NCBI RefSeq assembly: GCF_018555685.1
Contig: NZ_JAFLWW010000010.1
Span: 124,001-188,000, forward strand
Origin: Aminobacter anthyllidis
GTDB taxonomy: Bacteria > Pseudomonadota > Alphaproteobacteria > Rhizobiales > Rhizobiaceae
Length of the DNA: 64,000 nucleotides
Direction: 5' to 3'
A program made the translations under genes and the position numbers. Below the pieces are notes generated by a model. The model saw only the letters and a program-made list of their open reading frames with translations, did no database searches and was not told where the DNA came from. Within the stretch, counting starts at the first letter, position 1, and each line of letters opens with the position of its first letter. Positions 48,784 to 63,713 of the stretch are shown here, in pieces.

Positions 48784-49518
48784 TCAGTTGGACGCCCTGG
48801 CCTCCGAGACCAGCACCGGGTCGCTGCGGTAGCGTTCCGGGAACAGGCGCTTGAGGTTCTCGATCTTCGGCAGGTCGTTGTAGACGATGTAGGGGTAAGT
48901 CGGGTTCAGGGTCAGGAAATCCTGGTGATAGTCCTCGGCCTTGTAGAAGGCATGGCCAGGTTCGATCGTCGTCGCGATGGCGGCGTCAAAGACCTTGGCA
49001 TTGTCGAGCTGGGCAACGTAGGCCTTGGCGACCTTTGCCTGTTCGGCGTCGACCGGGAAGATCGTCGAGCGGTATTGGGGGCCGGTGTCGGGACCCTGGC
49101 GGTTGAGCTCCGTCGGATCATGCGCGACGGAGAAGTAGATCTGCAGGATCCGGCCATAGCTGATCTTGTGCGGGTCGAAGGTGATCCTGACCGATTCCGC
49201 ATGACCGGTCGAGCCGCTGCCGACGACGCTATATTGCGCCGTCTGCTTGTCGCCGCCGGCATAGCCTGACACGGCGTTCGCGACGCCCTCGACGTGCTGG
49301 AACACACCCTGCACGCCCCAGAAGCAGCCGCCGGCCAGCACCGCCACTTCCGAGTTGCCTTGCGCCGGCGCGTCGAGCGCGGGAGCCGGAATCTTTATCC
49401 CCTCCTGCGCCGCACTCGGTGTCGCCAGGGCCCAGGCGCCAAATGCGGCGACCGCGGCTGACAGCCAGAATACCGGCCTAACGGCTATCTTTCTTGCTCT
49501 CGAAATGTCCCGTGTCAT
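48784..49518 (-). CDS. msrA: peptide-methionine (S)-S-oxide reductase MsrA, exported
   Basis: Reduces methionine-S-sulfoxide. The 244-residue protein carries an N-terminal signal/anchor (VRPVFWLSAAVAAFGAWALA, ending near SAAQEG at residue 40). The catalytic GGCFWG follows at about residues 63-68 (Cys 65), then GYAGGDKQTAQY and the FDPHKISYGRIL segment. It is thus predicted periplasmic rather than cytosolic. ATG 49518 has GGAG at good spacing. It is divergent from the RidA operon, which includes a BisC-type enzyme in the same cluster. Confidence 0.92.
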   Translation of the reverse strand: MTRDISRARKIAVRPVFWLSAAVAAFGAWALATPSAAQEGIKIPAPALDAPAQGNSEVAVLAGGCFWGVQGVFQHVEGVANAVSGYAGGDKQTAQYSVVGSGSTGHAESVRITFDPHKISYGRILQIYFSVAHDPTELNRQGPDTGPQYRSTIFPVDAEQAKVAKAYVAQLDNAKVFDAAIATTIEPGHAFYKAEDYHQDFLTLNPTYPYIVYNDLPKIENLKRLFPERYRSDPVLVSEARASN

Positions 49519-49850
49519 CCAACTGCTCCAGTTCGTTCCTGGCCGCGTCCCTTGAGACACGTCTAGGCCCGCTCGGCCAAGCCGAACGATGCCCGCCAGC
49601 ACAGGATACGGAGATGGATGTGGTTTTGTTACGCGGAATCGGCGTGGGTCACGCGCAAGTGACTGCTGTGGCGGTTCATGTTGGCCTGCGATCCGATCGA
49701 CCCGGCGTCCAGTCCCTGACTGTTCACGCATTATGCCTTCCGTCCATCGACCCAAAATTCCCACGCCGTCTAGAGGCGGTTGATCTCACCGCGAACTTGC
49801 GTTATCACGCTGATGGTTTGATCAAATGAGCGTATATTGCAGAGGCGCCG
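49519..49850. other. non-coding divergent region between msrA and the RidA operon
   Basis: I see no gene in these 332 bases. The right end carries the candidate GntR operator TTTGATCAAA at 49817-49826, about 25 bases before the RidA start. The promoters of msrA and of the RidA operon should lie here, but no clear -35/-10 pair is visible. Confidence 0.55.
49817..49829. promoter_or_regulatory. candidate GntR operator, site A
   Basis: TTTGATCAAATGA, with the perfect palindrome TTTGATCAAA. The core TGATCAAAYGA is shared with sites at 55596-55610 and at 61712-61720 (reverse strand). It is placed where a repressor would block the RidA-aminotransferase-transporter operon. Confidence 0.55.
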
Positions 49851-50267
49851 ATGACAAGAAAAGCGATCTACTCCGGCTCTCCATTCGAGGAGCTCGCGGG
49901 CTATTCCCGGGCGCTTGTCGACGGCGACTGGATCTTCGTTTCAGGCACGGCCGGCCATGATCCGGCCATTGGCGGCTTCGCGCCCGAGGCTGAAGCCCAG
50001 GCGCGGCGCGCGCTCGACATCATCGCAGCGGCATTGGCGGAAGCAGGCTCCGGCTTGCGCGACATCGTTTCGGTGCGCGTCTACCTCGCCAGCCGCGACG
50101 ACGTCATGGCCGTCTCGCGCGTGCTCGGCGCGACCTTCGCCGACCCGCGCCCGACCAACACGACCATCATCTGCGGTTTCCCCGTCGAGGAGATCAAGGT
50201 CGAGATCGAAGTGATCGCGCGCCGCCAGGCCGGCGCTGCGGCAAACATCAGCCAGGTGGAACAATGA
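49851..50267 (+). CDS. RidA/YjgF-family protein lacking the key Arg
   Basis: A 138-residue Rid protein, expected trimeric. Canonical RidA hydrolyses enamines/imines using the Arg in the PARxxV motif. Here the aligned segment reads PTNTTI, so that Arg is Asn, as in other Rid subgroups whose activity is uncertain. GDWIFVSGTAGHDP and KVEIEVIARRQ are typical. It is the first gene of the operon and overlaps the aminotransferase start (ATGA), indicating work on the same imino or enamino intermediates. Confidence 0.9.
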   Translation: MTRKAIYSGSPFEELAGYSRALVDGDWIFVSGTAGHDPAIGGFAPEAEAQARRALDIIAAALAEAGSGLRDIVSVRVYLASRDDVMAVSRVLGATFADPRPTNTTIICGFPVEEIKVEIEVIARRQAGAAANISQVEQ

Positions 50268-51484
50268 AGCGGGTCGCGCGGCGTATCTCCGAGACGCCAC
50301 AGAAATCATTCGGCATGTACCAGAAGGCGGCGGCACTTGCCGGCAGCGGGCGTGACCTCATCCATCTCGAGCTTGGCCGCCCGGCCGCCGATACGCCCGA
50401 GCACATCAAGCAAGCGACGATCACGGCGATCCTGGCCGGCGACGTCCACTACAGCGACCTCAAGGGCACGGCGAGCTTCCGCGCCGCGCTGGCCGAAAAG
50501 CTGCGCAACCAGAACCGCATGGATGTGACCCCGGCGGACATCCTGGTCACCAACGGGCTGACGCACGCCTCGTTCGCGGCGTTCCTGGCCTTGCTCGATC
50601 CGGGCGACGAGGCGATCCTGCTCGACCCGTTCTACCCCCAGCATATCGGCAAGATCGAGCTGGCCGGCGCCAAGCCGGTGTTCGTGACGCTGGATGCCGC
50701 CGACGATTTCGCGCTCAAGCCAGAACTGATCGAGGCCGCCATCACCGAGCGCACCCGGATGATCGTGCTGGTCAATCCGGTCAACCCGACCGGCCGCGTC
50801 TACTCGCGCACCGAGCTCGAAGGTCTTGCCGAACTGGCGATCCGGCGCGACCTGCTCCTCATTTCCGACGAGGTCTATGAAGACATGGTCTATGACGGCC
50901 GCGAGCATATCTCCATTGGCGCACTGCCCGGCATGGCCGAGCGCACCATCACAGCATTTGCATTCACCAAATCCTTTGCCATGGATGGGTGGCGTCTCGG
51001 CTACATGGTCGCACCCGCCTGGGCGATGCCCGGGCTGCTCAAGATCACCGCCAACGACGCCACCCACGTCAATACATTTATCCAGGCCGGTGGTCGTGCT
51101 GCGATCACCGGCCCTTCCGAAGTGCTTGCCGAACTTGTCGACCATGACCGCCAGAAGCGCGATCTCGTCGTCCGCCGCCTGAACCAGATGCCGGGCGTGA
51201 AATGCCCGTCACCGCAAGGCGCGATCTACGCCTTTCCCGACATCTCGGCCTTCGGCATTCCGTCTCAGGCGCTTGCGGAAAGGATCCTCGACGAGGCAGA
51301 TGTGGTCGTCGAGGCCGGCAGCTTCTACGGTCAATCGGGCGAAGGCCATCTTCGCGTCTGCTTCGGCTCCGAGAGCCTGGAGCGGCTGGACGAAGGCATG
51401 GACCGGCTGTCCAGGTTCTTCAACAATCTCTGGGACGGGCGCGACGGAGCGCCGGCCAGCGAAGCAAAGCGGGGCAGTGCATGA
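50264..51484 (+). CDS. class I/II PLP-dependent aminotransferase
   Basis: A 406-residue fold-type I aminotransferase. The PLP Lys is in AFTKSFAMDGWRLGY near residue 237; the NPVNPTG and SDEVYEDM motifs are visible. The N-terminus resembles aspartate aminotransferase-like enzymes. It overlaps both the RidA stop and the next ABC ATPase start by ATGA, so it is translationally coupled. The amino donor or acceptor is not evident from sequence. Confidence 0.92.
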   Translation: MKRVARRISETPQKSFGMYQKAAALAGSGRDLIHLELGRPAADTPEHIKQATITAILAGDVHYSDLKGTASFRAALAEKLRNQNRMDVTPADILVTNGLTHASFAAFLALLDPGDEAILLDPFYPQHIGKIELAGAKPVFVTLDAADDFALKPELIEAAITERTRMIVLVNPVNPTGRVYSRTELEGLAELAIRRDLLLISDEVYEDMVYDGREHISIGALPGMAERTITAFAFTKSFAMDGWRLGYMVAPAWAMPGLLKITANDATHVNTFIQAGGRAAITGPSEVLAELVDHDRQKRDLVVRRLNQMPGVKCPSPQGAIYAFPDISAFGIPSQALAERILDEADVVVEAGSFYGQSGEGHLRVCFGSESLERLDEGMDRLSRFFNNLWDGRDGAPASEAKRGSA

Positions 51485-52272
51485 CACAGACCGGCGATGT
51501 CATCCTGCAGACCCGGGGCCTCTCCAGGAGCTTTGGCGCGCTCAAGGCGGTGGACGGTGTCGACATAGCGGTCAAGGCGGGCCAGATCACTGGCCTGATC
51601 GGCCCCAACGGCGCGGGCAAGAGCACGCTGTTCGGCCTCATCGCCGGCGAAGTCCAGCCGAGTGCCGGCGAGGTGATCTTCGGCGGCCAACGCATTTCAT
51701 GCCTCAGGCCCGACAAGATCTTCCGCGCCGGCCTGGCGCGGACCTTCCAGATCCCGCGGCCGTTTCCCGAGATGTCGGTGCTCGAAAACGTCATGCTGTC
51801 GGCAACCGACCAGTCGGGCGAGAAATTCTGGAACAACTGGTTCCGCGGCGGGCTGGTGGCCAGCGAGGAACGCCGCGCCCGTGAACGGGCGATGGAGGTG
51901 CTTGCCTTCACCGGTCTCGCCGATAAGGCGCGCGACCTTGCCGGCGTGCTTTCGGGCGGCCAGCAGAAACTGCTCGAGCTTGCCCGCGTCATGATGGTCG
52001 ACCCGCCGCTCATCCTGCTCGACGAACCGACGGCGGGCGTCAACCCGACACTCATCGAAACGCTGATCGACAAGATCGTGGCGCTCAACGAGCGCGGTGT
52101 CGCCTTCCTCATCGTCGAGCACAACATGGACATGGTGATGCGCATCTGCCGCCACATCGTGGTGATGGCGCAGGGACGGGTGATCTTCGAAGGCGACCCG
52201 GCCGGCGTGATGAAGGAGCAGCGCGTCGTCGACGCCTATCTCGGTGACGTAACGGTGGGAGAACTGGCATGA
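51481..52272 (+). CDS. branched-chain amino acid-type ABC transporter ATP-binding protein (LivG-like)
   Basis: A 263-residue ATPase with Walker A GPNGAGKST (residues 41-49), signature LSGGQQKLLEL, and Walker B LILLDEPTAGVNP. The C-terminal VDAYLG is characteristic of LivG. It overlaps the aminotransferase stop and the LivF-like start. Substrate specificity lies in the binding protein encoded at 60332-61606, on the opposite operon. Confidence 0.94.
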   Translation: MTQTGDVILQTRGLSRSFGALKAVDGVDIAVKAGQITGLIGPNGAGKSTLFGLIAGEVQPSAGEVIFGGQRISCLRPDKIFRAGLARTFQIPRPFPEMSVLENVMLSATDQSGEKFWNNWFRGGLVASEERRARERAMEVLAFTGLADKARDLAGVLSGGQQKLLELARVMMVDPPLILLDEPTAGVNPTLIETLIDKIVALNERGVAFLIVEHNMDMVMRICRHIVVMAQGRVIFEGDPAGVMKEQRVVDAYLGDVTVGELA

Positions 52273-52997
52273 GCGCGCCCGTCTGCGAAGCGCGCAACCT
52301 GCGCGCCAGCTACATCCCCGGCATGCCGATCGTCTTCGACATCTCGGTCACCATCGATGCTGGCGAACTTGTCACGCTGATCGGCCCGAACGGTGCTGGC
52401 AAGTCGACCTTCCTCAAGGCGCTCGCCGGCCTGGTGCTGGTCGAGGGTGGCGAGGTCAAGCTTGGCGGCAAGCGTATCTCGGGCCTGCCGACCCATGAGA
52501 TCATCGCCGCGGGCGTCGGTTTCGTGCCGCAGACCAGCAACGTCTTTTCCTCGCTGTCGATCGAGGACAATCTGATCAGCGGCGGCCACACCTTGCCGCG
52601 TTCGGTGCTGCGCGAACGCGTGCAGCGCGCCTTCGAGCATTTTCCGGCGCTGGCCGACCGTCGTCGCGCCGCAGCCAACGTGCTCTCCGGCGGCCAGCGC
52701 CAGATGCTCGCGGTGGCGCGCGCTCTGATGACCGATCCGCGCGTCATCATGCTCGACGAGCCGACGGCGGGCCTGGCCCCCAAGATCGTCCACGAGGTGC
52801 TCGACGACCTGCGCCGCCTCGCCAAGAGCGGCGTCGCGGTGCTGATGGTGGAGCAGAACGCCAAGGCGGCACTTCGGGTTTCCGACCGTGCCTATGTCCT
52901 GGTCGAAGGCCGCAACCACATGACGGGGACGGCGACCGACCTGCTCGACAACGACGCCATTGCCGAAGCATTCCTGGGCTTCCGGAGGAAATCATGA
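52269..52997 (+). CDS. branched-chain amino acid-type ABC transporter ATP-binding protein (LivF-like)
   Basis: A 242-residue ATPase with Walker A GPNGAGKST (residues 39-47), signature LSGGQRQMLAV, and Walker B VIMLDEPTAGLAP. The C-terminal DAIAEAFLGF fits LivF. It starts in the LivG-like stop and overlaps the LivH-like start, both as ATGA. Confidence 0.94.
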   Translation: MSAPVCEARNLRASYIPGMPIVFDISVTIDAGELVTLIGPNGAGKSTFLKALAGLVLVEGGEVKLGGKRISGLPTHEIIAAGVGFVPQTSNVFSSLSIEDNLISGGHTLPRSVLRERVQRAFEHFPALADRRRAAANVLSGGQRQMLAVARALMTDPRVIMLDEPTAGLAPKIVHEVLDDLRRLAKSGVAVLMVEQNAKAALRVSDRAYVLVEGRNHMTGTATDLLDNDAIAEAFLGFRRKS

Positions 52998-53896
52998 TCG
53001 GACAAGCCATCGCCGACGGTCTCTTGACCGGCGGTATCCTCGCGCTCGGGGCAATCGGCTATTCGCTGTGCGCGCATATGCTGAAATTCGCCAATTTCGC
53101 CCATGCCGAAATGCTGACCTGGGGCGCCTACCTGGCATTTGCGGTGGTGGCGTTCCTGCCTGCCGGCCCCGCAATCGGTCCCTTCTCCTTTGGCTGGCCG
53201 CTGCTCGTTGCCATCGTCGTCTCCTGCGTCGGTACCGGGCTGATCGCCGTTGCCGCCGACGCGCTCGTTTTCTCCAAGCTCAGGAAGCGTCGCGCCAGCA
53301 GCTTGACGCTGGTTTTCGCCAGCTTCGGCATTGCGCTGATCCTGCGCAATCTTGTGCTCTTCGTCTGGGGTGCGGATGCGCATTACTACAGCCAGGAACT
53401 GCAGATCTCGCTCGAGGTCTTGCCCAATGTCAGGCTGATGCCCGACCAGGTGCTCGTCCTGGTGCTGACGGTGGCGCTGGTGGTGGCGCTGCACCTGTTC
53501 CTGAAGTTCAGCCGCATCGGCGTCGCCATGCGTTCGATGGCCGAGAACCCGGCCCTGTCGCAGGTCTGCGGCATCGACATCGCCAAGGTGGTGCGCTGGA
53601 CCTGGATGCTGAGCGGAGCGCTTGCCGCCATTGCCGGCGTGTTTGCCGGGCTGACGGTGCAGATTCGTCCGGAGATGGGCTTCAACATGCTTTTGGCGCT
53701 GTTCACGGCGGCGATCCTCGGCGGCACCGGCAGCCTGTTCGGCGCGGTCGCCGGCGGCCTGATCGTCGGCCTCGCCGAAAGCCTGTCGGCGCTGGTCATC
53801 CCGACCGGCTACAAGGCGGCGGTGCCCTTCGGCCTGCTGCTCATCATCCTCTACCTCAGGCCGCAGGGTCTGTTCTCCAGGTCGGCACGCGTGTGA
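52994..53896 (+). CDS. branched-chain amino acid-type ABC transporter permease (LivH-like)
   Basis: A 300-residue inner-membrane permease with about eight helices. ILALGAIGYSLCAHMLKFANFAH at the N-terminus, and the conserved VGLAESLSALVIPTGYK near residue 260, are LivH features. It overlaps the preceding ATPase by ATGA and is followed 7 bases later by the LivM-like gene. Confidence 0.93.
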   Translation: MIGQAIADGLLTGGILALGAIGYSLCAHMLKFANFAHAEMLTWGAYLAFAVVAFLPAGPAIGPFSFGWPLLVAIVVSCVGTGLIAVAADALVFSKLRKRRASSLTLVFASFGIALILRNLVLFVWGADAHYYSQELQISLEVLPNVRLMPDQVLVLVLTVALVVALHLFLKFSRIGVAMRSMAENPALSQVCGIDIAKVVRWTWMLSGALAAIAGVFAGLTVQIRPEMGFNMLLALFTAAILGGTGSLFGAVAGGLIVGLAESLSALVIPTGYKAAVPFGLLLIILYLRPQGLFSRSARV

Positions 53897-53903
53897 GGCT
53901 CAG

Positions 53904-54848
53904 ATGATCGGATTTGTTTCGTATCTCGTATTCTTCCTCACCGTTGCGCTGATCCTCGGCATCGCGACGCTTGGGCTCAACCTGCAATGGGGCGGCACCG
54001 GCCTGTTCAATGCCGGTATCGTCGGCTTCTATGCCATCGGCGCCTACACCTTCGCGATCCTGACAGCGCCGGCGCGTCCGGAACTGCTCGGCAATTTCGA
54101 ACTGCCCTGGATCGTTGGCCTGGTCGGCGCGATGGCCGCCGCAGCACTTGCGGCGCTCATCACCGGTCTGGCGACGGTCCGGCTGCGCGGCGACTACCTT
54201 GCCGTCGCCACCTTCGGCATCGCCGTCACCATCCAGTTGGTGGCGACCAACTTCGAAGCCTTGACCGGCGGCACGATGGGCATCGCCTCGATCCCCAATC
54301 CGTTCCGCGGGCTGTTTGCGGCGCCGCTCGCCAACAATTTCGGCTACCTGGCCGTCGTCGTGGTGATCCTCGCTATCGCTTATGTCGCCCTCGAGCGCAT
54401 CGCGCGTTCGCCATGGGGACGCGTGCTCAAGGCCATCCGCGAGGACGAGGTTGCCGCCGAAACGCTGGGCAAGAACACCCGCAGCTTCCGCCTGCAGGCG
54501 TTCGTCATCGGCTCGACGCTGATGGGGCTTGCCGGTGCGCTCTATGCCAGCTTCATCGGCTTCGTTAGCCCGTTCGACTTCCTGCCGATCCTGACCTTCC
54601 AGATCTGGACGATGCTGATCATCGGCGGCAGCGGCAACAATCGTGGCGCCATCCTCGGCGCGATCGTTGTCTGGGGCATCTGGAGCGCCATCGGTGCGGC
54701 GTCGTCGAAGATGTTGCCGGAGCAGCTCCAGATCTATGGCGGCGCGGCCCAAGCGATGATCATCGGCCTGGCGCTGGTGCTGGTGCTGCTGCTGCGGCCG
54801 CGCGGCCTGATCGGCGAGCAGCCGGTCACCTCGCGTCACGCCGCCTGA
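53904..54848 (+). CDS. branched-chain amino acid-type ABC transporter permease (LivM-like)
   Basis: A 314-residue permease with about nine helices. GLNLQWGGTGLFNAGIVGFY, TVRLRGDYLAVATFGIAV and GRVLKAIREDEVAAETLGKN are LivM hallmarks. GAGG precedes ATG 53904. It is the last gene of the RidA operon and converges on the GntR gene, with a short hairpin between. Confidence 0.94.
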   Translation: MIGFVSYLVFFLTVALILGIATLGLNLQWGGTGLFNAGIVGFYAIGAYTFAILTAPARPELLGNFELPWIVGLVGAMAAAALAALITGLATVRLRGDYLAVATFGIAVTIQLVATNFEALTGGTMGIASIPNPFRGLFAAPLANNFGYLAVVVVILAIAYVALERIARSPWGRVLKAIREDEVAAETLGKNTRSFRLQAFVIGSTLMGLAGALYASFIGFVSPFDFLPILTFQIWTMLIIGGSGNNRGAILGAIVVWGIWSAIGAASSKMLPEQLQIYGGAAQAMIIGLALVLVLLLRPRGLIGEQPVTSRHAA

Positions 54849-54862
54849 GAGTCAGGCTTGAA

Positions 54863-54884
54863 AGGCCGGCACTAGCGCCGGCCT
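54863..54884. terminator. shared hairpin between LivM-like and GntR genes
   Basis: AGGCCGGC and GCCGGCCT form an 8-bp stem with a 6-base loop in the 37-base gap between the two convergent genes. No T-run follows on either strand, so it is a weak or rho-assisted terminator. Confidence 0.55.
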
Positions 54885-54885
54885 G

Positions 54886-55584
54886 TCAGTTCGTCTCGAC
54901 GGCTTCCTTGCACAGGCGGCGCAGCAGGGCTTGCGTCGTCTCGATGTCGCCCTTGATCGCCTTGGCGGCGGCACGGGCGTCGCCTGCATCCATCGCCTCG
55001 ATCAGGTCGCGGTGATGCGAGCTCGGCTGGTACTTGCCGGAGACCAGCACCGGCTCGATGTGGCCCGACAGCATGCGCATATACGGGCCGAACCGGAGCC
55101 ACAGGCTCTGGATGAACTGGGTGATGACGGGCGAGCCGCAGCAGTCGTAGACGGCGAAATGCAGCTCCTGGTTCCGCGCCAGCATCAATTCGAGATTTCT
55201 GTCGTTGGCGGCGGCCTCATGCTCCTCGACGAGATGCCGGAAGGTCTTTCGGTCGGCCGGCGTCGAGCGTTCGGTGGCGAGCTTGGCCGCAAGCGTTTCC
55301 AGCGCGATGCGCGTCAGGCAAAGGTCGTCCAGAGCCGCCAGGCTGACGGTCGGCACCTGCGCCGATCCGGTGGTCAGCACCACCAGCGCGTTCTCGGCGA
55401 TCAGGCGACGCAGCGCCTCGCGCACCGGCATGTGGCTGGTCTTGAACGTGTCGGACAGCATGGCGATTGTCAGCGTCTGGCCGGGGTCGAAATGGCCCGA
55501 CATCAGCGCCTTGCGCAGCTGGCGATAGATACCGTCCTGAATCGTCGAGCGCGACGAAACAGGCTCCAGGAAATCGACGCTCAT
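54886..55584 (-). CDS. GntR-family (FCD/FadR-type) transcriptional regulator
   Basis: A 232-residue regulator. The N-terminal winged helix contains IYRQLRKALMSGHFDPGQ and TSHMPVREALRRL (residues about 24-65). The C-terminal helical FCD domain carries the metal/ligand His set (NQELHFAVYDCC, SSHHRDLIEAM). ATG 55584 is strongly supported by AGAGGAAG; the longer ORF start is not used. A TTTTGATCAAA palindrome directly upstream suggests autoregulation and control of the two flanking operons. Confidence 0.92.
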   Translation of the reverse strand: MSVDFLEPVSSRSTIQDGIYRQLRKALMSGHFDPGQTLTIAMLSDTFKTSHMPVREALRRLIAENALVVLTTGSAQVPTVSLAALDDLCLTRIALETLAAKLATERSTPADRKTFRHLVEEHEAAANDRNLELMLARNQELHFAVYDCCGSPVITQFIQSLWLRFGPYMRMLSGHIEPVLVSGKYQPSSHHRDLIEAMDAGDARAAAKAIKGDIETTQALLRRLCKEAVETN

Positions 55585-55595
55585 CCAGCTTCCTC

Positions 55596-55610
55596 TTTTG
55601 ATCAAACGAT
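55596..55610. promoter_or_regulatory. candidate GntR operator, site B
   Basis: TTTTGATCAAACGAT lies just upstream of the GntR ribosome binding site. Together with the next two bases it differs from the reverse complement of site C at only two positions. Confidence 0.55.
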
Positions 55611-55689
55611 GGATCTGCCCATAGCATAGAAATCGCGCCGCGCGGTATCAAGCCGGCACGACGCGTGTGAACTGTTTGCTGCAGGGGCC

Positions 55690-56655
55690 CTACCAGGCGA
55701 CCCTTTGGCCAAGGCCCTTGTCGATCGCGTTCTTCACGGCTCGAATTGCTGCCGCAGCGTCCTCCACGGCGATGCCGAGCGACTTGAACACCGTGAGTTC
55801 CTGGGCTGACGACCGCCCGGGACGCAGGCCGGCCAGAACCTCGCCGAGTTCGGCGCGGGCATGATCGGGGCCGATCACGCCGCGTTCGAGCGGCTGCAGC
55901 AGTTCGCCACACTCGACCGCGGCCTGGCTGCGCGAATCGACAAAGAACGCCGAAGCGGCAACGATGTCGTCGCCAAGCTCGCGCGCCATGCGGTTGCTGG
56001 AACCGACGGCGTTGATGTGACAGCCCGGCTTCAGCCAGTGGAGCTCGACGATAGGTTCCTTCGAGCCGGTCAGCGTGCAGATCACGTCAGCGTCGGCGAC
56101 CGCAGCCCGAGCGCTGTCGGCCGTCTCGGCGCCACTTTTGCCGGCAAGCTCCACGACCTTGTCGCGTGAGCGGCCCCAGAGCACGAAGGCAGCATCTGGG
56201 ATGACATGGCGCAGCGCTTCGATATGCGTCTCGGCCTGCGTTCCCGTGCCGAGGATGGCGACGGTCCTCGCGTCGGGCCGGGCCAGTGCCGCCGTTGCCA
56301 CGGCTGAAGTCGCGGCGGTGCGGCGGGCGGTGATTTCGGTGGCGTCGAGCACGGCTCGAAGCTGGCCGGTCTCGCCGTCGTTGAGCAGCACAGCGCCCTG
56401 GTGATTGTCGAGGCCGCGCGCCGCGTTGTCGTGGGCGACGAGCACATCCTTCAGGCACCAGAGCTTTTCGCCGCCAGCCTGCGAGAATGTCGGCATCAGC
56501 CCCATCAACACCTCTCCGGGGCCGGCATTGAGCTGCTGGCGCGGAAACAGCTTGTAGCCACCGGTGGCGAAATCAGCGAGTGCGATGCGCATCGCGTCGA
56601 TGCAGTCGGCCATGGGCAAGGCGGCGGCGACGGCCTGCCGGTTGAGGATCAGCAT
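55690..56655 (-). CDS. ornithine cyclodeaminase / mu-crystallin family protein
   Basis: A 321-residue NAD(P)-dependent enzyme of the OCD family, which includes ornithine cyclodeaminase, alanine and arginine dehydrogenases and ketimine reductases. The Rossmann motif AILGTGTQAETHIEAL is near residue 135. The substrate-binding Arg/Lys region (WCLKDVLVAH, near 70) and the DATEITARRTAATSAVA segment are typical. AAAGGAG lies about 10 bases before ATG 56655. It is the last gene of the binding-protein/molybdoenzyme operon and may reduce or form a cyclic imine. Confidence 0.88.
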   Translation of the reverse strand: MLILNRQAVAAALPMADCIDAMRIALADFATGGYKLFPRQQLNAGPGEVLMGLMPTFSQAGGEKLWCLKDVLVAHDNAARGLDNHQGAVLLNDGETGQLRAVLDATEITARRTAATSAVATAALARPDARTVAILGTGTQAETHIEALRHVIPDAAFVLWGRSRDKVVELAGKSGAETADSARAAVADADVICTLTGSKEPIVELHWLKPGCHINAVGSSNRMARELGDDIVAASAFFVDSRSQAAVECGELLQPLERGVIGPDHARAELGEVLAGLRPGRSSAQELTVFKSLGIAVEDAAAAIRAVKNAIDKGLGQRVAW

Positions 56656-56706
56656 TGAAAACGGCTCCTTTGCGAGGCCAGACAGATATGCCGCCGTATC
56701 TGGCGA

Positions 56707-58011
56707 TCACAATCCCTGGCGCCGGTCCTGCCATCTGGCCTGGGCGATGGCGACCGACGGGGCCGCCGCGGCAATGCTGCGAAACGGCAAGGCGCGCGGC
56801 GATGCCTGCGGGATTGGCAATGCGTCGCGCGGCGTGTCGGACGCGGCGTCGGCCAGCACCTCGCCGAGCATTGCCGTCAAGGCGATGCCACGGCCGTTGC
56901 AGCCGATGCCGCCGATGAAGCGCGGACCGAATTCATAGACATGCGGCAGGAAGTCGGTGGTCATGGCGGCGGTGCCGCGCCAGATGCTTTCGACTACGGG
57001 CAGGCGCGGCAGGCCCAATTCGGCCTGCAGGCGGCCGGCGACCATCGCAGCCATGCGGGGTTGGGCGCCGAGCGGAAGCATCGACATGCCGCCGCTGATC
57101 AGCCGGTTGTCGCGGTCGAGCCTGAAGGTGAAGAGGTTGGCGCGCGTGTCGGCAACGGGGTTCCGCTCCGGCGAAATGCGCCGCATCGTTGCCTCGTCGA
57201 GCGGGGCGGTGGCGATCTGGTAGACGCGCAGCGGCACGACGATGCGGCCGAGGCGGCGGGCGGCACCCTGCTCCGAGGCATTGGTGCACAGCAGGACCGT
57301 GTCGGCGTTGACCGTGCTTTTTCCGCTGGTCAGCCGCCAGCCATTGCCCGACCGCTCTACGGCCCGGACAGGCGCGTGCTCGTGGATGAAGGCACCGGCC
57401 TTGATGGCAGCGCTTGCCAGTCCATAGGCATAGTTGAGCGGATGCAGCGTGCCGCCGCTCTCGTCGATGAGGGCTCCGGCGTTATGCCTGAGGCTGGCGC
57501 GGCGGCGCGCCTCGGCGGCGTCGAGCATGCGCACCGGACGGCCCATCGCCTGCCAGGCTTCCGCCCGGCGTTCGAGGATGCCGAGCATCTTTTCCGAATG
57601 CGCGACATGCATCCAGCCGACCTGCTCGGCATCGCAGGCGATGCCGTTTTCGCGGATGGTCGCGTAGACGCGGTCGGCGCCACCGCCGATCATCTGGAGC
57701 AACTTGTGGCCGCGTTCAGCGCCAAGCTTGGCGATCACCGCCGCCGGGTCGGCCTTGGCGAAATTCGGCACGACGAAACCGGCGTTGAGGCCGCTCGCGC
57801 CGCTGCCGATCGTTTCGGCCTCGAGCACGGCGACTCGCGCGCCACGCCGTGCGAGGTGGAGTGCCGCGGTCAGGCCGGTGAAGCCGGCGCCGATGATCGC
57901 GACGTCGACCTTGCTTGTGCCCGATAAGGGTTGGGTCAAAGGTGCCGGATTGGCGGTTTGCCACCACACCGTTCGCATGTGCTGGTGCGGCGCGTTCTGT
58001 GCGGTGGTCAT
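56707..58011 (-). CDS. FAD-dependent amine/amino acid oxidoreductase (DAO family)
   Basis: A 434-residue flavoprotein of the D-amino acid oxidase/sarcosine oxidase/PuuB group. The FAD motif VAIIGAGFTGLTAALHLARR lies at residues 37-56, and a C-terminal GCNGRGIALTA binds FAD. A short N-terminal Trp-rich segment (TVWWQTANP) precedes it, as in PuuB-like gamma-glutamylputrescine oxidases. ATG 58011 overlaps the molybdoenzyme stop (ATGA). Such enzymes turn an amine or amino acid into an imine, matching the RidA and OCD neighbours. Confidence 0.88.
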   Translation of the reverse strand: MTTAQNAPHQHMRTVWWQTANPAPLTQPLSGTSKVDVAIIGAGFTGLTAALHLARRGARVAVLEAETIGSGASGLNAGFVVPNFAKADPAAVIAKLGAERGHKLLQMIGGGADRVYATIRENGIACDAEQVGWMHVAHSEKMLGILERRAEAWQAMGRPVRMLDAAEARRRASLRHNAGALIDESGGTLHPLNYAYGLASAAIKAGAFIHEHAPVRAVERSGNGWRLTSGKSTVNADTVLLCTNASEQGAARRLGRIVVPLRVYQIATAPLDEATMRRISPERNPVADTRANLFTFRLDRDNRLISGGMSMLPLGAQPRMAAMVAGRLQAELGLPRLPVVESIWRGTAAMTTDFLPHVYEFGPRFIGGIGCNGRGIALTAMLGEVLADAASDTPRDALPIPQASPRALPFRSIAAAAPSVAIAQARWQDRRQGL

Positions 58012-60305
58012 GATGTCGCAAATTCCGGCAGGCAAAAGGCGGTGACAGGTGGAACCGGACCGGCAAAGGCGGCGATCTCGACCAGGCAGGTCTGGGCGCT
58101 GCAGCCTTGCGACAGGCTAGACGCCGGCACATCGAGCGTCAGCACGTTCGGGTTGCCGTGCTTTTCAAGCCCGGTCTCAGGGTCTGGGTCGAACCATGCG
58201 CCGGTGTTGAGCCGCGCCACGCCGGGCATGATGTCGCTGCTGATCGTCACCGCTGCCAGGCAGCGGCCACGATCGTTGAAAAGTTCGACGATCTGGCCTT
58301 CGCCGAGCCCGCGCTGCGTGGCATCCCCCGGGTTCATGTAGACAAGCTCGCGGCCATTAGACTTGCCACCGGCGCTGTAGGGACTGGCGTCGAGCTGGCT
58401 GTGCAGCCGGCGCGCCGGCTGGTCGGTCAGAAGGTGCAGTGGAAACTTGGCCGTGAGTTCGTCGCCCAGCCACTCCGCCGGTTCCATCCATGTGGCATGG
58501 CCGGGGCAGTCATCCAGGCCGAAGCCGGCGATACGCTGCGAGAAGATCTCGATCTTGCCCGACGGTGTGCCAAGCGGCTTGCTGTCCGGATCGGCGACGA
58601 AGTCGGCGAGCATGGTGACGGGGCGGTCGAGCGGGGTGAGGTCGATCAGCCCGTCGCGCCAGAAGGTCTCGAAGTCGGGCAGGTCGAGCCCGCGCGCGCG
58701 GTTGAGCGGCCGGCATTCTTCATAGAGCCGCGTCAGCCAGCCGGCGGCGTCGAGCCCTTCGGAGAAGGTTTCGCCGCAGCCGAGCCGCTCGGCCAGTTCG
58801 GCGAAGATCGCATAGTCGTCGCGGGCTTCTCCGGCCGGTGGCACCGCCTGCTTCATCGCAACGATGAAGGCTTCCAGCGTTGCCGAGCCGATATCGTCGC
58901 GTTCGAGCGAGATCGTAGCCGGCAAAACGATGTCGGCGCGCTTGGCCGTCGGCGTCCAGTACTGCTCGTTGACGATGACCGTTTCCGGCTTCTGCCAGGC
59001 AGTGAGCAGGCGGTTGAGGTCCTGGTGATGGTGAAACGGGTTGCCGCCGGCCCAATAGATCAGGTGGATGTCGGGATAGTTCTGCGTCTTGCCATTGTAG
59101 GTGAAGGGCGCGCCGGGATTGAGCAGCATGTCGGCGATGCGGGCGACGGGGATGAAATCGGGAATGCCCGGCTTGAGCTGCGACAGCGTCGGGCCCTTGA
59201 TGCGGGTGTGGGCGCTGCCGACAAGATTTGCCGCGCCGTAGCCGACGCCGAAGCCGCCGCCCGGCGTGCCGATCTGGCCGAGCATCGCCGCCAGCGTCAC
59301 CACCATCCAGTAGGGCTGCTCGCCATGGCTGGCGCGCTGCATCGACCATGACACATTGAGCATCGTGCGCGACGATGCCATGCGACGCGCGAGATCGACG
59401 ATGGTTCCGGCAGGCACGCCGCTGATCGCTGCGGCCCATTCAGGTGTCTTGGGCGTGCCGTCGATCGCGCCGGTGAGGTAGGGGACGAAGTTGTCGAAGC
59501 CCGTGCAGCAGCGTTCGAGGAATGCCTGGTCGTGCAGGCCTTCGCTTAGAAGCACCCATGCCAGCGCCAGCATCAAGGCTGTGTCGGTGTTGGGCCGGCA
59601 GGCGATCCATTCCGCCGCATCGGCGACCGCGCCGAAATTGTCGCGTACCGGGCCGATATTGACGAAGCGGGTGCCGGCTGCGCGCATGCCGGCAAGACCC
59701 GCCGGCACGCCGTGCAGGGCGACGCCGCCGGCGTTGATCTGGGAGTTCTTGACGGGCACGCCGCCGAAGCTGACGAACAGCTCGCAATGCGCGGCCAGCG
59801 TATCCCATGAGGAATGGCCGGCCATCAGTTCGTCCATGCTCGCCACGATGTGCGGCAGCACGACGTTTGCCGCGCCCAGGCTGTAGGAATCGACATGCCG
59901 GACATAGCCGCCGGCGGCATTCAGGAAGCGATGGACCTGGCTTTGCGCGTGGTGGAAGCGGCCGGCACTCGACCAGCCATAGGAGCCGCCGAAGATCGAC
60001 GAATTGCCATGGGCGGTGCGGACCCGGTCGATCTCGGCTGCGGCAAGATCAAGGGCGCGATCCCATTCCACTTCGACGAAGGGATCGATACCGCGCCGCT
60101 CTGGTGCTGCTCCCGGGCCATGATCGAGCCAGCTCTTGCGTATGGCCGGGCGCCGGACCCGGAGCCTGTCGAGCGCCGGGTCGAGCTGGTAGAGGCCGAT
60201 CGGGCTCGGGTCCCGATCGCGCCTGAACGGCTTCAGGGCGGGCAAACCGTTCCCACGGGGTTCGACCTCGTAGGTGCCCCAATGGGAAAGGGTGTAGTTC
60301 GTCAT
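58008..60305 (-). CDS. BisC/TorZ-family molybdopterin oxidoreductase
   Basis: A 765-residue molybdopterin guanine dinucleotide enzyme of the DMSO reductase superfamily, BisC/TMAO reductase group. The Mo-ligand Ser is expected in GGSYGWSSAGRFHHAQSQ at residues 106-123. Further typical blocks are NVSWSMQRASHGEQPYW and the C-terminal HSQLD segment. It lacks the N-terminal Cys cluster for Fe-S and any Tat signal, so it should work in the cytoplasm like biotin sulfoxide reductase, reducing an S- or N-oxide. It follows the binding-protein gene by 26 bases and overlaps the FAD oxidase gene. Confidence 0.9.
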   Translation of the reverse strand: MTNYTLSHWGTYEVEPRGNGLPALKPFRRDRDPSPIGLYQLDPALDRLRVRRPAIRKSWLDHGPGAAPERRGIDPFVEVEWDRALDLAAAEIDRVRTAHGNSSIFGGSYGWSSAGRFHHAQSQVHRFLNAAGGYVRHVDSYSLGAANVVLPHIVASMDELMAGHSSWDTLAAHCELFVSFGGVPVKNSQINAGGVALHGVPAGLAGMRAAGTRFVNIGPVRDNFGAVADAAEWIACRPNTDTALMLALAWVLLSEGLHDQAFLERCCTGFDNFVPYLTGAIDGTPKTPEWAAAISGVPAGTIVDLARRMASSRTMLNVSWSMQRASHGEQPYWMVVTLAAMLGQIGTPGGGFGVGYGAANLVGSAHTRIKGPTLSQLKPGIPDFIPVARIADMLLNPGAPFTYNGKTQNYPDIHLIYWAGGNPFHHHQDLNRLLTAWQKPETVIVNEQYWTPTAKRADIVLPATISLERDDIGSATLEAFIVAMKQAVPPAGEARDDYAIFAELAERLGCGETFSEGLDAAGWLTRLYEECRPLNRARGLDLPDFETFWRDGLIDLTPLDRPVTMLADFVADPDSKPLGTPSGKIEIFSQRIAGFGLDDCPGHATWMEPAEWLGDELTAKFPLHLLTDQPARRLHSQLDASPYSAGGKSNGRELVYMNPGDATQRGLGEGQIVELFNDRGRCLAAVTISSDIMPGVARLNTGAWFDPDPETGLEKHGNPNVLTLDVPASSLSQGCSAQTCLVEIAAFAGPVPPVTAFCLPEFATS

Positions 60306-60331
60306 GCCCAGTGGTCCAACCCGCCCGAGGA

Positions 60332-61606
60332 TCAGCCCTCGATTTCCGCGAACAGCTTCTTCATATCCTCGTTCGAATAGGTCTTGTCGATGATCAGTTC
60401 GTCGCCCTGGATATGCCAGGACAGGGCTGGACCGCTGATGTCGCCATAAGCATCGAATTCAATCTCGCCGAGCGAGCCGACGAACTTGATCGGCTTGCCG
60501 GCCTTGATCAGCTCGAGCGCCTTCTTGAACTCGGCCGGACCAGTGCCGATAACTTCGCCCTCGGCGGCCTGCGTCTTGCGGACCGCGTCGCGGATGGAGG
60601 CGCCGGAAAGGTCGGGTGCGATGTTCATGGCGAGGCCGAGGATCATGACGGCGTCGTATTCGCTGTAGATGCCGGGGCCGTCTGAGCTGATCCCGTAGGC
60701 GGCGTTGAAAGCCTGCTTGAAGGCTTCGATCTCGGGACCGGCTACCGACGCGTTGTCGGTGCCGAAGGCCTTGGTCAGGTACTTGGCGCCCACAGCCTTG
60801 ACGAAGTCGGGGCTGCGCAGCGCGTTGTTGAGGATCAGGTCCTGCGTTCCGCCGAGCGAAATCCACTCGCGGGTGATGGTCGCGCCGTCCTGCGGGAAGG
60901 CGACGAGGAACATCGCGTCAGGCTTTTCCGCGAGAGCGGCCGAAACCTCGGCGCGATAGGAAGCCTGGTTCTCGTTGAAGGCAACGGATTTCACGACTTC
61001 GCCGCCAAGCTTCTCCGTCGCCTTCCTGAAATCCTTCTCCAGGCTCGTGCCGTAGTCGTTGTTGAGGTAGATGACCGCGATGCGCTTGAAGCCGCGCTCG
61101 GCGGCGATCTTGGCCGGCGGATAGGCGAGGTTCTTGACCGTTGGCTGTGTGCGGAAGAAGAAGCCGCCGGTCTTGCCTTCCTGCGCGAGCGTGGTGAGAA
61201 CGGGGGCGGAGGCGCAGCAGGCGATCTGCGGAATTTGCGAAGGGGCGGTCACCGAGGTCAGGATCGGGATGGTGACGCCACTGCCGATGCTGGCCGTCAG
61301 CGCCTTGACTCCCTCGACATCGACGAGAAACTTGGCCGCGTCGACGCCGACATTGGGCTGGCCCTGATCGTCGCGCAGCACGAATTCGACCTGGCAGCCC
61401 TTGACGCCGCCGCCCTCATTGATGTTTGCGATGGCGAGTTGCGCGCTGCTGGCGATGTTCTTGCCGACGGCACCCATCGAGCCGGTCAGTGACAGCACGC
61501 CGCCGATCTTGACCGGGCATGCGGCGTCCTCGGCCATTGCCGACGAGGTGGAAAATGCGGTGGCCGCGAGCAGGCTGGCCAGCATCAGGCCCTTGGTTTT
61601 GTTCAT
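60332..61606 (-). CDS. branched-chain amino acid-type periplasmic binding protein (LivK/Amt type)
   Basis: A 424-residue Peripla_BP_6 protein with a signal peptide ending at about residue 25 (SSAMA-ED). The mature start is CPVKIGGVLSLTGSMGAVGK. It has several Cys in the mature part (KGCQ, CCASA), unusual for LivK. It supplies the ligand to the LivGFHM-type transporter encoded in the other operon. ATG 61606 is preceded by GTG 61609; AGGGGA upstream fits either. A TTTGATCAT site lies 105 bases upstream. Confidence 0.9.
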   Translation of the reverse strand: MNKTKGLMLASLLAATAFSTSSAMAEDAACPVKIGGVLSLTGSMGAVGKNIASSAQLAIANINEGGGVKGCQVEFVLRDDQGQPNVGVDAAKFLVDVEGVKALTASIGSGVTIPILTSVTAPSQIPQIACCASAPVLTTLAQEGKTGGFFFRTQPTVKNLAYPPAKIAAERGFKRIAVIYLNNDYGTSLEKDFRKATEKLGGEVVKSVAFNENQASYRAEVSAALAEKPDAMFLVAFPQDGATITREWISLGGTQDLILNNALRSPDFVKAVGAKYLTKAFGTDNASVAGPEIEAFKQAFNAAYGISSDGPGIYSEYDAVMILGLAMNIAPDLSGASIRDAVRKTQAAEGEVIGTGPAEFKKALELIKAGKPIKFVGSLGEIEFDAYGDISGPALSWHIQGDELIIDKTYSNEDMKKLFAEIEG

Positions 61607-61711
61607 CACAGTTCGTTCCCCTTGTTTGGATGATGGCGGCCGCTTGCTCGTCTCAGGCCTTGGTGCCCGTTGGTCAAGTCGTCGCGGGATGGTGGTTCCT
61701 TATCTCCATCA

Positions 61712-61720
61712 TTTGATCAT
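61712..61720. promoter_or_regulatory. candidate GntR operator, site C
   Basis: TTTGATCAT; on the reverse strand the extended sequence TTATGATCAAATGATGG aligns with site B. It lies about 105 bases upstream of the binding-protein start, in the right place for control of the molybdoenzyme operon. Confidence 0.5.
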
Positions 61721-62097
61721 AAGCGCACAAAATTTTTCGGTTGTAAAGCGAGGTCGAAAGGCGCGAAATTTCGGGGGGTTGGCGGGTATAGAAGAGAAAT
61801 AAATGTTTTTAGTCAGATGGTTGGGTGATTTAGCGACGCCTTGCGTAGCTGTCGGTGGCGGCGTGAAATTGCAGTCTCCGGAATTCGGATTCTTGTCGAA
61901 TTTGCTCCGGATCGGGAGGTTTTCACCTGCCTGGCGGGCTGAAAGAAGTTACTATGCGATGGTTGGCTGGGGCTGAGCTTGGCCCGCTGGCATCGCCATA
62001 GCTGCCCCTTGGCCAGCCAAAACCGACCAGAACCATGCATGCGGGGATATTCGAGCTTCAAGGATACCGGTGCCGTTGGCATTCTCGCGAAAATAAT

Positions 62098-62174: not shown

Positions 62175-62966
62175 ATGACAGCCAACCAGACGCTGGCGGA
62201 TTTCGCGTCGGCAATCGCCACGGGTGCGGTCCAGATCGTCGACCTTACCGCGCCGCTGGGGCCTGATACGCCGGTTCTGTACCTGCCGCCGGATTTCGCC
62301 AAGAACACGCCGAAGTTCAAGATGCACGAGATCTCGCGCTACGACGCCAACGGCCCGTGGTGGGCATGGGGCTGGATGGAACTGGGCGAGCACACCGGTA
62401 CGCATTTTGATGCCCCGGCGCACTGGATTTCCGGCAAGGATGTCGCCCAGGGCACGACGGATACCGTGTCGCCGCAGTCCTTTGTCGCGCCTTGCGTGGT
62501 CATCGACTGCTCCAAGGAAGTTGCGGCCAATCCGGATTACCTGCTGACCGCCGATGGCGTGAAGGCATGGGAGGCAGTGCACGGCCAGATTCCGCGGGGC
62601 GCCTGGGTGCTGATGCGCTCGGACTGGTATCCGCGTAACACCTCGACCGAAGCCTTCCTGAATGCCGACGAAAATGGCCCGCACACGCCTGGACCAAGCG
62701 TCGATTGCGTTCGCCTGCTGGTCGAGCGCGGCGTGCTCGGCTTCGGCAACGAATGCGTCGGCACCGATGCCGGCAGCGCGGTCGCGATGGATCCGCCGTT
62801 CCCCACCCACAGCCTCCTGCTTGAAGTCGGCAGCTACGGCCTCGCCAGCCTGTGCAACCTCGACAAGCTGCCGGCCACCGGTGCCGTGCTGGTCGTCGCC
62901 CCGCTCAAGATCGTCGGTGGCACCGGCAGCCCGGTACGTGCCTTCGCGCTCGCGCCGCGCGCCTGA
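62175..62966 (+). CDS. cyclase-family (kynurenine formamidase-like) metal hydrolase
   Basis: A 263-residue protein of the cyclase family (PF04199), whose members include bacterial kynurenine formamidase KynB and isatin hydrolase. The metal motif HTGTHFDAPAHW lies at residues 73-84 (His and Asp ligands). GAGGAGAG precedes ATG 62175. It could open an amide or lactam ring in aromatic amino acid breakdown or in the neighbouring cluster; it may belong to either. The MarR gene follows after 195 bases. Confidence 0.88.
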   Translation: MTANQTLADFASAIATGAVQIVDLTAPLGPDTPVLYLPPDFAKNTPKFKMHEISRYDANGPWWAWGWMELGEHTGTHFDAPAHWISGKDVAQGTTDTVSPQSFVAPCVVIDCSKEVAANPDYLLTADGVKAWEAVHGQIPRGAWVLMRSDWYPRNTSTEAFLNADENGPHTPGPSVDCVRLLVERGVLGFGNECVGTDAGSAVAMDPPFPTHSLLLEVGSYGLASLCNLDKLPATGAVLVVAPLKIVGGTGSPVRAFALAPRA

Positions 62967-63161: not shown

Positions 63162-63713
63162 ATGGTCACGAAATACTTCCTCGGGTCTCTCAGGGAAGCC
63201 GGCGACGGCAACCGCCTGCCCAGCCTTGGCGAAATCGGGCTCAACCGCTTCGCGCCGCACCTCATCAACCGGCTGTCGGCGAGCTATAACGCCAATCTGC
63301 AGGAGTTGTTGCGCCCGCTCGACCTGACCACGCCGAAGATGCGGGCCATCGCGCTTTTGACGATCTCGCCCGGGCTGACGGTCAATGAGCTGTCGTTCCT
63401 TGCGGTTGTCGAGCAGTCGACGATGAGCCGCACGCTCGATGCGCTGGAAGAGCAGGGCTTTGTCCGCCGCCAGTCGCGCGCCGACGACATGCGCGTACGC
63501 GAAGTGCACATCACCGACGCCGGCCGCGATGTCTTCCAGCAGTTCTGGCCGGTGCTGTTCGGCATCTTCTCGCAGCTGTTCGAAGGCATCGAGCCCGACG
63601 AATACGATGCCTTCATCGTCACGCTGCACAAGGTCCTGCGCAACATGGACAAGTTCAGCGTCGATGAAGTTGCGGCCAAGCCCAGCGACGCAAAGACCGA
63701 CGCCGAGGCCTAG
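63162..63713 (+). CDS. MarR-family transcriptional regulator
   Basis: A 183-residue winged helix regulator. The DNA-binding segment is LTVNELSFLAVVEQSTMSRTLDALEEQGFVRR (about residues 73-104, shown here only as its MarR-type Ser-Thr-Met-Ser-Arg recognition helix). The wing RADDMRVREVHIT follows. ATG 63162 with AACAGG upstream is preferred over a longer frame. It converges on the next gene and probably regulates the cyclase or that gene. Confidence 0.88.
   Translation: MVTKYFLGSLREAGDGNRLPSLGEIGLNRFAPHLINRLSASYNANLQELLRPLDLTTPKMRAIALLTISPGLTVNELSFLAVVEQSTMSRTLDALEEQGFVRRQSRADDMRVREVHITDAGRDVFQQFWPVLFGIFSQLFEGIEPDEYDAFIVTLHKVLRNMDKFSVDEVAAKPSDAKTDAEA

Follow-up and report, generated by a model that had tools for sequence, protein, structure and literature searches.

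Does a Liv-type importer whose binding protein is encoded in one operon, and whose permeases and ATPases are encoded in another, form a single catabolic system with the enzymes of both operons? The question is raised by eleven genes at positions 49851-61609 of the stretch of DNA analysed here (64,000 nucleotides from Aminobacter anthyllidis, hereafter the window; the genome is 6.7 Mb in size). An earlier note on this DNA had described a plus and a minus operon converging on one GntR gene; the open reading frames (ORFs) are indeed found there, and Pfam returned the expected families for the ten proteins scanned, the binding protein being assigned to the Liv type by other searches. The plus operon encodes a Rid-family protein, an aminotransferase-like enzyme (AT) and LivG-, LivF-, LivH- and LivM-like components of an ATP-binding cassette (ABC) importer; the minus operon encodes the binding protein, a BisC-type molybdoenzyme, a DAO-family oxidoreductase and an OCD-family protein. 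The sequences argue that these eleven genes make up one GntR/FCD-controlled regulon for the uptake and catabolism of one type of compound, and we put the probability of this reading at about 0.9.

Evidence for this comes from an operator-like palindrome, TTTGATCAAA, which was first spotted by eye and then tested. It lies at 49817-49826, about 34 bases 5' of ridA, at 55597-55606, over the gntR start, and, differing at one base (minus strand, TATGATCAAA), at 61712-61721, about 110 bases 5' of the binding-protein gene. Allowing at most one mismatch, it was present at 26 of 27 operon heads in nine loci (ridA 9/9, binding protein 9/9, gntR 8/9, the single miss being the fragment from Rhizobium sp. 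RU36D), and in none of 68 equally long regions 5' of the AT, LivG, LivF, LivH, LivM, OCD, DAO and BisC genes of the same loci; its background rate in the loci searched was 0.11 per kb. Each of the five Aminobacter genomes searched contains the 14-base form ATNNTTTGATCAWA exactly three times, invariably at the heads of ridA, gntR and the binding-protein gene, and a reversed ATNNTTTGATCAWA used as control had no site in these five genomes. With the palindrome common to the three operon heads, the two operons have the appearance of a single regulon, and an operator at the head of both would explain how the binding protein serves permeases encoded in the other operon. The coexpression that the earlier note had called for is thus supported, as is its view of the locus as a single catabolic uptake system.

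The palindrome also reaches beyond loci with BisC. Sites with up to one mismatch occur 5' of operon genes in the BisC-less loci of SOG26, Xaviernesmea, Rhizobium terrae, Aureimonas, Tianweitania, the genome G051 and Caballeronia SBC1; Nitratireductor, Rhizobium 11515TR and Mesorhizobium B1-1-8 have sites only when two mismatches are allowed. An operator of the FadR type was considered and rejected (neither of two strict patterns had a match, and a loose one yielded two stray hits). In the PubMed Central (PMC) literature searched here (CC0, CC BY and CC BY-SA papers), no description of TTTGATCAAA together with a GntR protein was found. Outside the cluster of Chelatococcus, two exact TTTGATCAAA sites lie 138 bases apart (contig C2, 115145-115292); they may belong to a further operon with a similar regulator.

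Several observations tell against a dedicated operator and a uniformly kept gene set. ATNNTTTGATCAWA was derived from the same sites that it then recovers. Exact copies of the bare 10-mer number five in the window's genome, of which two fall in the cluster (Chelatococcus, four and two; RU36D, eight and one); the Gemmobacter genome has nine, all of them outside the cluster, whose own copies are mismatched. The window has an extra copy with one mismatch at 34550-34559, away from the cluster. Finally, the Rid match in Chelatococcus covers only 48 residues (L164:3009-3152) and the GntR match in RU36D only 82 (L165:11514-11759), so both genes may be decayed and dispensable there.

The layout of the genes is that of two compact modules. 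ATGA overlaps were read from the DNA at four of the five junctions of the plus operon (RidA/AT, AT/LivG, LivG/LivF and LivF/LivH), and 7 bases separate LivH from LivM. In the minus operon such an overlap was read at one of four junctions, BisC/DAO, with gaps of 26, 51 and 84 bases at binding protein-BisC, DAO-OCD and OCD-GntR (starts as used); the start-stop overlaps once described inside each operon are therefore a feature of the plus operon and occur in the minus operon only once. The importer components on the plus strand are the LivG-like ATPase (51481-52272, its ATG overlapping the AT stop), the LivF-like ATPase (52269-52997), and the LivH-like and LivM-like permeases (52994-53896 and 53904-54848; PF02653, 141.7 and 155.3 bits). 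Both ATPases were recognised by Pfam and NCBIfam. The GntR/FCD-family regulator (54886-55605, minus strand; PF00392 and PF07729) is last on its strand and may belong to the minus operon, although it has an operator-like site of its own. Among the NCBIfam matches listed (the best 25 families for AT, LivG, LivF and DAO), no gene scanned reaches the cut-off for a known activity, and this includes the four importer components covered by the scan, the binding protein, LivG, LivF and LivH.

How widely is the gene set kept? All eleven genes were found in four of nine other Aminobacter genomes (G200, G201, G202 and G204), at 77-100% identity. In G204 the complete cluster has different flanks, so the eleven genes have stayed together while their neighbourhood changed. 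Named genomes were further scanned with an AT alignment, and the best 80 of 95 confirmed loci were analysed. Among these, BisC is present in two Aminobacter loci and three others. Gemmobacter caeni has all eleven genes; Chelatococcus asaccharovorans has AT, LivGFHM, GntR, the binding protein, BisC, DAO and OCD in addition to the short Rid match; and Rhizobium sp. RU36D has every gene, that for GntR being the short one. In the metagenome-assembled genome (MAG) ALPHA1 the set is split over two contigs, one with Rid and AT and the other with OCD, DAO, BisC, the binding protein, GntR, LivM, LivH, LivF and LivG, the last truncated where the contig ends. The block from the binding protein through BisC and DAO to OCD is inverted in Chelatococcus and ALPHA1, with its order unchanged, as expected if the operons are two modules. 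OCD was matched at E<=1e-75 in 4 of 394 genomes of the family, each an Aminobacter genome that has the cluster, and, out of 385 genomes of the class, in the window's own alone; AT was matched at E<=1e-150 in 4 of 397 genomes of the order, three of them only 61-68% identical. Judged from these matches, the gene set is rare and spread across families. Absence of conserved co-occurrence of the two operons had been named as grounds for abandoning the idea; their joint occurrence in the four Aminobacter genomes, Gemmobacter and ALPHA1 leaves it standing.

The enzymes of the cluster appear to fall into two groups. At the loose thresholds used, 5 of the 80 AT loci have BisC together with OCD and 75 have neither gene; a full OCD is present at locus L069. 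DAO and the binding protein occur together in 18 of the 80, and 22 of the 27 loci with DAO have neither BisC nor OCD. In a tree of 85 rows, the ATs of the BisC clusters and of the cut-short MAG locus L076 form one clade (support 100/98), whose sister group is made up of ATs from DAO-bearing Aureimonas and Antarcticirhabdus loci. BisC and OCD thus look like an add-on to a commoner module of importer, DAO, AT and Rid, and the simplest reading of the sequences would be one joining of the two genes to the existing module, followed by spread of the whole across orders. The strength of this pattern is reduced on three counts: 23 of the 80 loci span less than 20 kb; L070, counted as having neither gene, belongs to ALPHA1, which carries both on its other contig; and if the joining was perhaps a single event, the five cases out of five are not five independent ones.

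What, then, would BisC do? The protein (58008-60305, minus strand) was identified by Pfam, by NCBIfam and by alignment with solved structures. Its best NCBIfam match by about 275 bits is bisC_fam (TIGR00509), the family of biotin sulfoxide reductase, at 952.5 bits against a cut-off of 1017.55, and it aligns over its full length with the dimethyl sulfoxide (DMSO) reductase of Rhodobacter (1e18, 696.8 bits), with the GSYGW and Y-S stretches kept. In DMSO reductase a Ser is the Mo ligand and Tyr and Trp belong to the active site; the corresponding Y109, W111 and S142 are invariant in the BisC alignment of seven sequences. Inspection by eye found no twin-arginine translocation (Tat)-type leader. 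The assignment to the S- or N-oxide reductase type is therefore upheld, and oxide reduction is the role that we would favour, with some reserve. The cluster proteins differ from the TIGR00509 family in falling under its cut-off, in being encoded inside an importer regulon and in forming a clade of their own (nine proteins, support 100/100, in a tree of 36 rows). BisC is unsuitable as a marker of the system, as near BisC genes elsewhere (60-67% identical) have unrelated neighbours: at the thresholds used, none of DAO, OCD, AT, the binding protein, Rid and GntR was found in seven regions around near non-cluster BisC genes.

BisC might instead be a repair enzyme, undoing the oxidation of methionine or biotin by hydrogen peroxide derived from DAO, with an imported compound that is no oxide. 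In the window a gene at 48784-49764, MsrA-like as judged by eye, lies next to the cluster, divergent from ridA with the ridA operator between them, and such a gene also adjoins the cluster in G200, G201 and G202, as a repair function would have it; G204 and the regions of Chelatococcus, RU36D and Gemmobacter gave no MsrA match, BisC is absent from 22 of the 27 DAO-bearing loci, and in the operon it is located between the binding protein and DAO. Repair is thus quite improbable. MsrA was also considered as a member of the regulon and rejected, since all four of its site matches come from the region that it has in common with ridA, its ORF start probably being set too early; the MsrA regions were left out of the operator controls.

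The nature of the oxide can be approached through BisC genes on plasmids. Ten annotated plasmid regions were hand-picked and read (an eleventh had no annotation), and in six of the ten the gene names beside BisC suggest organosulfur metabolism: a methionine-type ABC transporter (one region), methionine salvage (one), a dimethylsulfoniopropionate (DMSP)-lyase-family protein (two, alike) and NtaA/DmoA monooxygenases (two, alike). One of the other four, on Agrobacterium pAtAF1_95 (L173:4355-17039), has BisC among genes for histidine ammonia-lyase, urocanate hydratase, DUF917, a Zn-dependent hydrolase and ABC importers; it might count as organosulfur too, perhaps, as a guess, by acting on ergothioneine or another thio-histidine.

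Together with the BisC-type active site, these neighbours speak for a ligand that is the S-oxide of an amino or imino acid, for example methionine sulfoxide, an S-alkylcysteine sulfoxide or the oxide of a cyclic thia-imino acid such as cycloalliin. BisC would then produce the sulfide, DAO and AT would remove the nitrogen, and OCD would handle a ketimine. The earlier note had inferred an amino-acid-like S-oxide or N-oxide that is reduced and then deaminated, and this is its S-oxide form. The second solved relative of OCD, thiomorpholine-carboxylate dehydrogenase, and the best family of DAO, L-pipecolate oxidase, agree with this. A linear S-oxide would leave OCD idle, even though OCD co-occurs with BisC, and an acidic residue found in four of five aligned relatives is missing from the binding protein. 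An S-oxide substrate is accordingly a serious candidate that still falls well short of even odds.

The remaining enzymes bear on the same choice. The OCD/mu-crystallin-family protein (55690-56655, minus strand; PF02423, 219.9 bits) is reductase-like. True ornithine cyclodeaminase carries a catalytic Asp after its HxNxxG turn; this Asp is missing from all eight proteins compared, in which the turn reads G-S/A-S, and the closest solved relatives, the reductases 6t3e (Delta1-pyrroline-2-carboxylate reductase) and 4bv8 (the thiomorpholine-carboxylate enzyme), have G-W-V and G-A-S there. Against PRK06141, a Delta1-pyrroline/piperideine-2-carboxylate reductase family, OCD scores 223.5 bits, below the cut-off of 322. 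The flavin adenine dinucleotide (FAD)-dependent DAO-family protein (56707-58011, minus strand; PF01266, 200.9 bits), whose ATG at 58011 overlaps the BisC stop, has as its best NCBIfam family among the matches listed the L-pipecolate oxidase AmaA (NF050086; 276 bits, cut-off 600), a model that also matches all 13 DAO proteins from BisC clusters and relatives. AmaA and Delta1-piperideine-2-carboxylate reductase act in lysine catabolism; the best family matches of DAO and OCD recall that system, although both scores are under their cut-offs.

A member of the OCD family, DauB, is known from a different pairing. As described in PMC5619798, DauA and DauB with Rid2/Rid3 convert D-arginine to L-arginine in Pseudomonas aeruginosa, so that an FAD dehydrogenase, an amino-acid-forming reductase and a Rid protein act in one pathway. 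By analogy, after BisC has removed an oxide, DAO might oxidise a D-amino or D-imino acid, OCD might return the L form and AT might continue from there. The same pairing of functions and the reductase-like OCD are in keeping with such a swap of configuration; the AmaA-like DAO, the absence of OCD from 22 of the 27 DAO-bearing loci and the lack in the cluster Rid of the Arg present in the Rid2/Rid3 partners of DauA are not, and we regard it as unlikely. The cluster further differs from the DauA/DauB/Rid pathway in adding an importer, BisC and AT.

AT (50264-51484, plus strand; PF00155, 192.8 bits) is a class I/II pyridoxal phosphate (PLP) enzyme of the aminotransferase fold that reaches no NCBIfam cut-off among its best 25 of 82 families. 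Its best match there is GntC (299.4 bits, cut-off 415), an arginine-type PLP cyclase according to PMC10367076. A canavanine pathway was considered, since a catabolic operon with a PLP enzyme, canavanine-gamma-lyase, is reported to serve canavanine utilisation in Rhizobium and Pseudomonas (PMC10018355), and in this respect the cluster resembles it; it was rejected because the similarity to GntC is under the cut-off.

The Rid-family protein (49851-50267, plus strand; PF01042, 75.9 bits; TIGR00004, 56.6 bits against a cut-off of 106.25) lacks the catalytic Arg. The imine-hydrolysing members (RidA, Rid1-3) are recognised by Arg105, and, according to PMC4433059 and PMC5619798, hydrolysis of imines is found in the Arg-bearing subfamilies and not in the one Arg-less Rid7 protein tested. 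At this position (105 in the numbering of E. coli TdcF; aligned with Arg of 2b33) the cluster protein has Asn within RPTNTT, as do all 14 Rid proteins aligned, eight from BisC clusters and six from BisC-less relatives. Rid is therefore probably an accessory protein and not an imine hydrolase, and the suggestion that it deals with imines is not borne out, the more so as only 48 residues could be matched in Chelatococcus.

Could the importer simply be a broad amino-acid importer of the ordinary kind, with loosely associated enzymes and a BisC uninvolved in the pathway? Importers of the Liv type are very common, and the binding protein (60332-61609, minus strand), assigned by NCBIfam and as a relative of solved structures, gives an AlphaFold2 model (mean predicted local distance difference test score 87.2) whose nearest folds are LivK (3td9) and LivJ (4gnr). 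The fold search resolves only a Liv-type or aromatic-acid-type protein. Like LivJKHMGF/HAAT importers, the system has a binding protein, two permeases and two ATPases; it differs in that the gene for the binding protein is grouped with enzyme genes in the opposite operon. The operator-like site common to the operon heads and the retention of the whole set across families make an ordinary importer very unlikely.

The binding protein departs from these importers at one further position. In HAAT proteins an acidic residue of lobe 2 contacts the alpha-ammonium group of the ligand. In all nine BisC-cluster proteins the stretch is ILNNALRS, where 3td9, 3ip5 and 3ipc have GDG and 4n0q has GEG, so that the acid of four of the five aligned relatives is replaced; the fifth, 3hut, which is called a putative branched-chain amino acid protein, reads GSSAL there and lacks the acid too. 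The expectation of an amino-acid-like ligand is weakened by NNALRS but not overturned, given 3hut. The protein would be suited to a ligand with no free alpha-ammonium group. The stretch QIACCASAP, which puts a Cys-Cys pair in the expected ligand region, is found in BisC clusters and SOG26-type relatives and not in the Aureimonas type.

Set in order, the families would allow the following scheme, the one that we prefer. An inducer, either the substrate or its product, would lift GntR from TTTGATCAAA, and the binding protein with LivGFHM would import a carboxylate. Cytoplasmic BisC would reduce the N-O (or S-O) group of the imported compound. If this were an oxime- or nitrone-like N-O group, the product would be an imine, which OCD could reduce to an amine with NAD(P)H. 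The amine would then enter the core module, where the DAO oxidase followed by the PLP enzyme would yield a 2-oxo acid for general metabolism, with Rid as an accessory; in relatives without BisC and OCD the core module would handle that amine by itself. As BisC and OCD are paired and relatives seem to manage with DAO and AT, the pair is taken to convert an oxidised form for the core. We infer the chemistry from the enzyme families, and the whole ordered scheme (uptake, BisC, OCD, DAO, PLP enzyme) is tentative, more apt to fail at some step than to hold throughout.

Its most specific version makes BisC and OCD a two-step reductive front end for imported oxime or nitrone carboxylates (imine N-oxides), feeding the oxidase-aminotransferase module. 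An oxime or nitrone fits BisC followed by OCD, while an S-oxide fits BisC only and leaves OCD idle unless the compound is a cyclic thia-imino acid. Such a front end would explain why no locus of the 80 has one of the two genes alone (both in 5, neither in 75). This version, and the scheme as a whole, have to be set against four points: the change in the binding protein is common to BisC-less relatives, SOG26-type proteins having a similar stretch; the organosulfur neighbours of plasmid BisC genes favour an S-oxide, which would leave OCD without obvious use; the position of OCD before DAO, and not after it, is our own ordering; and the cluster Rid is without its Arg. In this exact form the proposal is speculative and improbable.

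Genes beyond the cluster were noted as well. An isatin-hydrolase-like gene (62175-62966; 368 bits to 4j0n) and a MarR gene (63165-63713) follow it, and two indolepyruvate-oxidoreductase-like genes, IorB/IorA, stand just past the window end (L147:3735-7423), behind the hydrolase in the window's genome. In G200, G201 and G202, as in the window, the hydrolase-like gene is next to the cluster, and ALPHA1 has a partial match (55% over 118 residues) beside OCD at a contig end; it was unmatched beside the cluster in G204, Chelatococcus, RU36D and Gemmobacter. IorA and isatin hydrolase occur together 13 times among the 80 AT loci against 3.1 expected, and DAO with isatin hydrolase is not among the pairs found in four or more of them. 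With operator sites at none of five hydrolase and none of four MarR regions, a link to isatin or indole was set aside, not disproved. Within the 10-kb surroundings of AT, 37 of the 80 loci have a distant kynureninase-like class V PLP enzyme, which in several Roseobacteraceae (L123, L128, L132, L134, L136, L137 and others) stands beside isatin hydrolase or IorA and could, as a speculation, split oxidised tryptophan into isatin and alanine. A gene resembling 3-hydroxyanthranilate 3,4-dioxygenase (by eye; G204, L148:5599-6144) lies a few kb from the G204 cluster, with ABC transporter genes between.

A GntR-controlled catabolic regulon with an ABC importer is a known kind of system; the enzyme set of this one is unusual. 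In the literature searched, no description was found of an operon with OCD, biotin sulfoxide reductase, an ABC transporter and an aminotransferase, nor of Aminobacter with a sulfoxide and molybdopterin. The set is compact and seemingly self-contained, with three sites and eleven genes, so that the substrate could be identified by work on a single binding protein, a single regulator and four enzymes. As a caution, a Rid gene beside an oxidase need not encode an imine hydrolase. With the substrate identified, a BisC-type molybdoenzyme would have a defined role in catabolism, where relatives appear in several catabolic contexts without one, and the oxime or nitrone version, if true, would be a bacterial route for assimilating such compounds under a private GntR operator.

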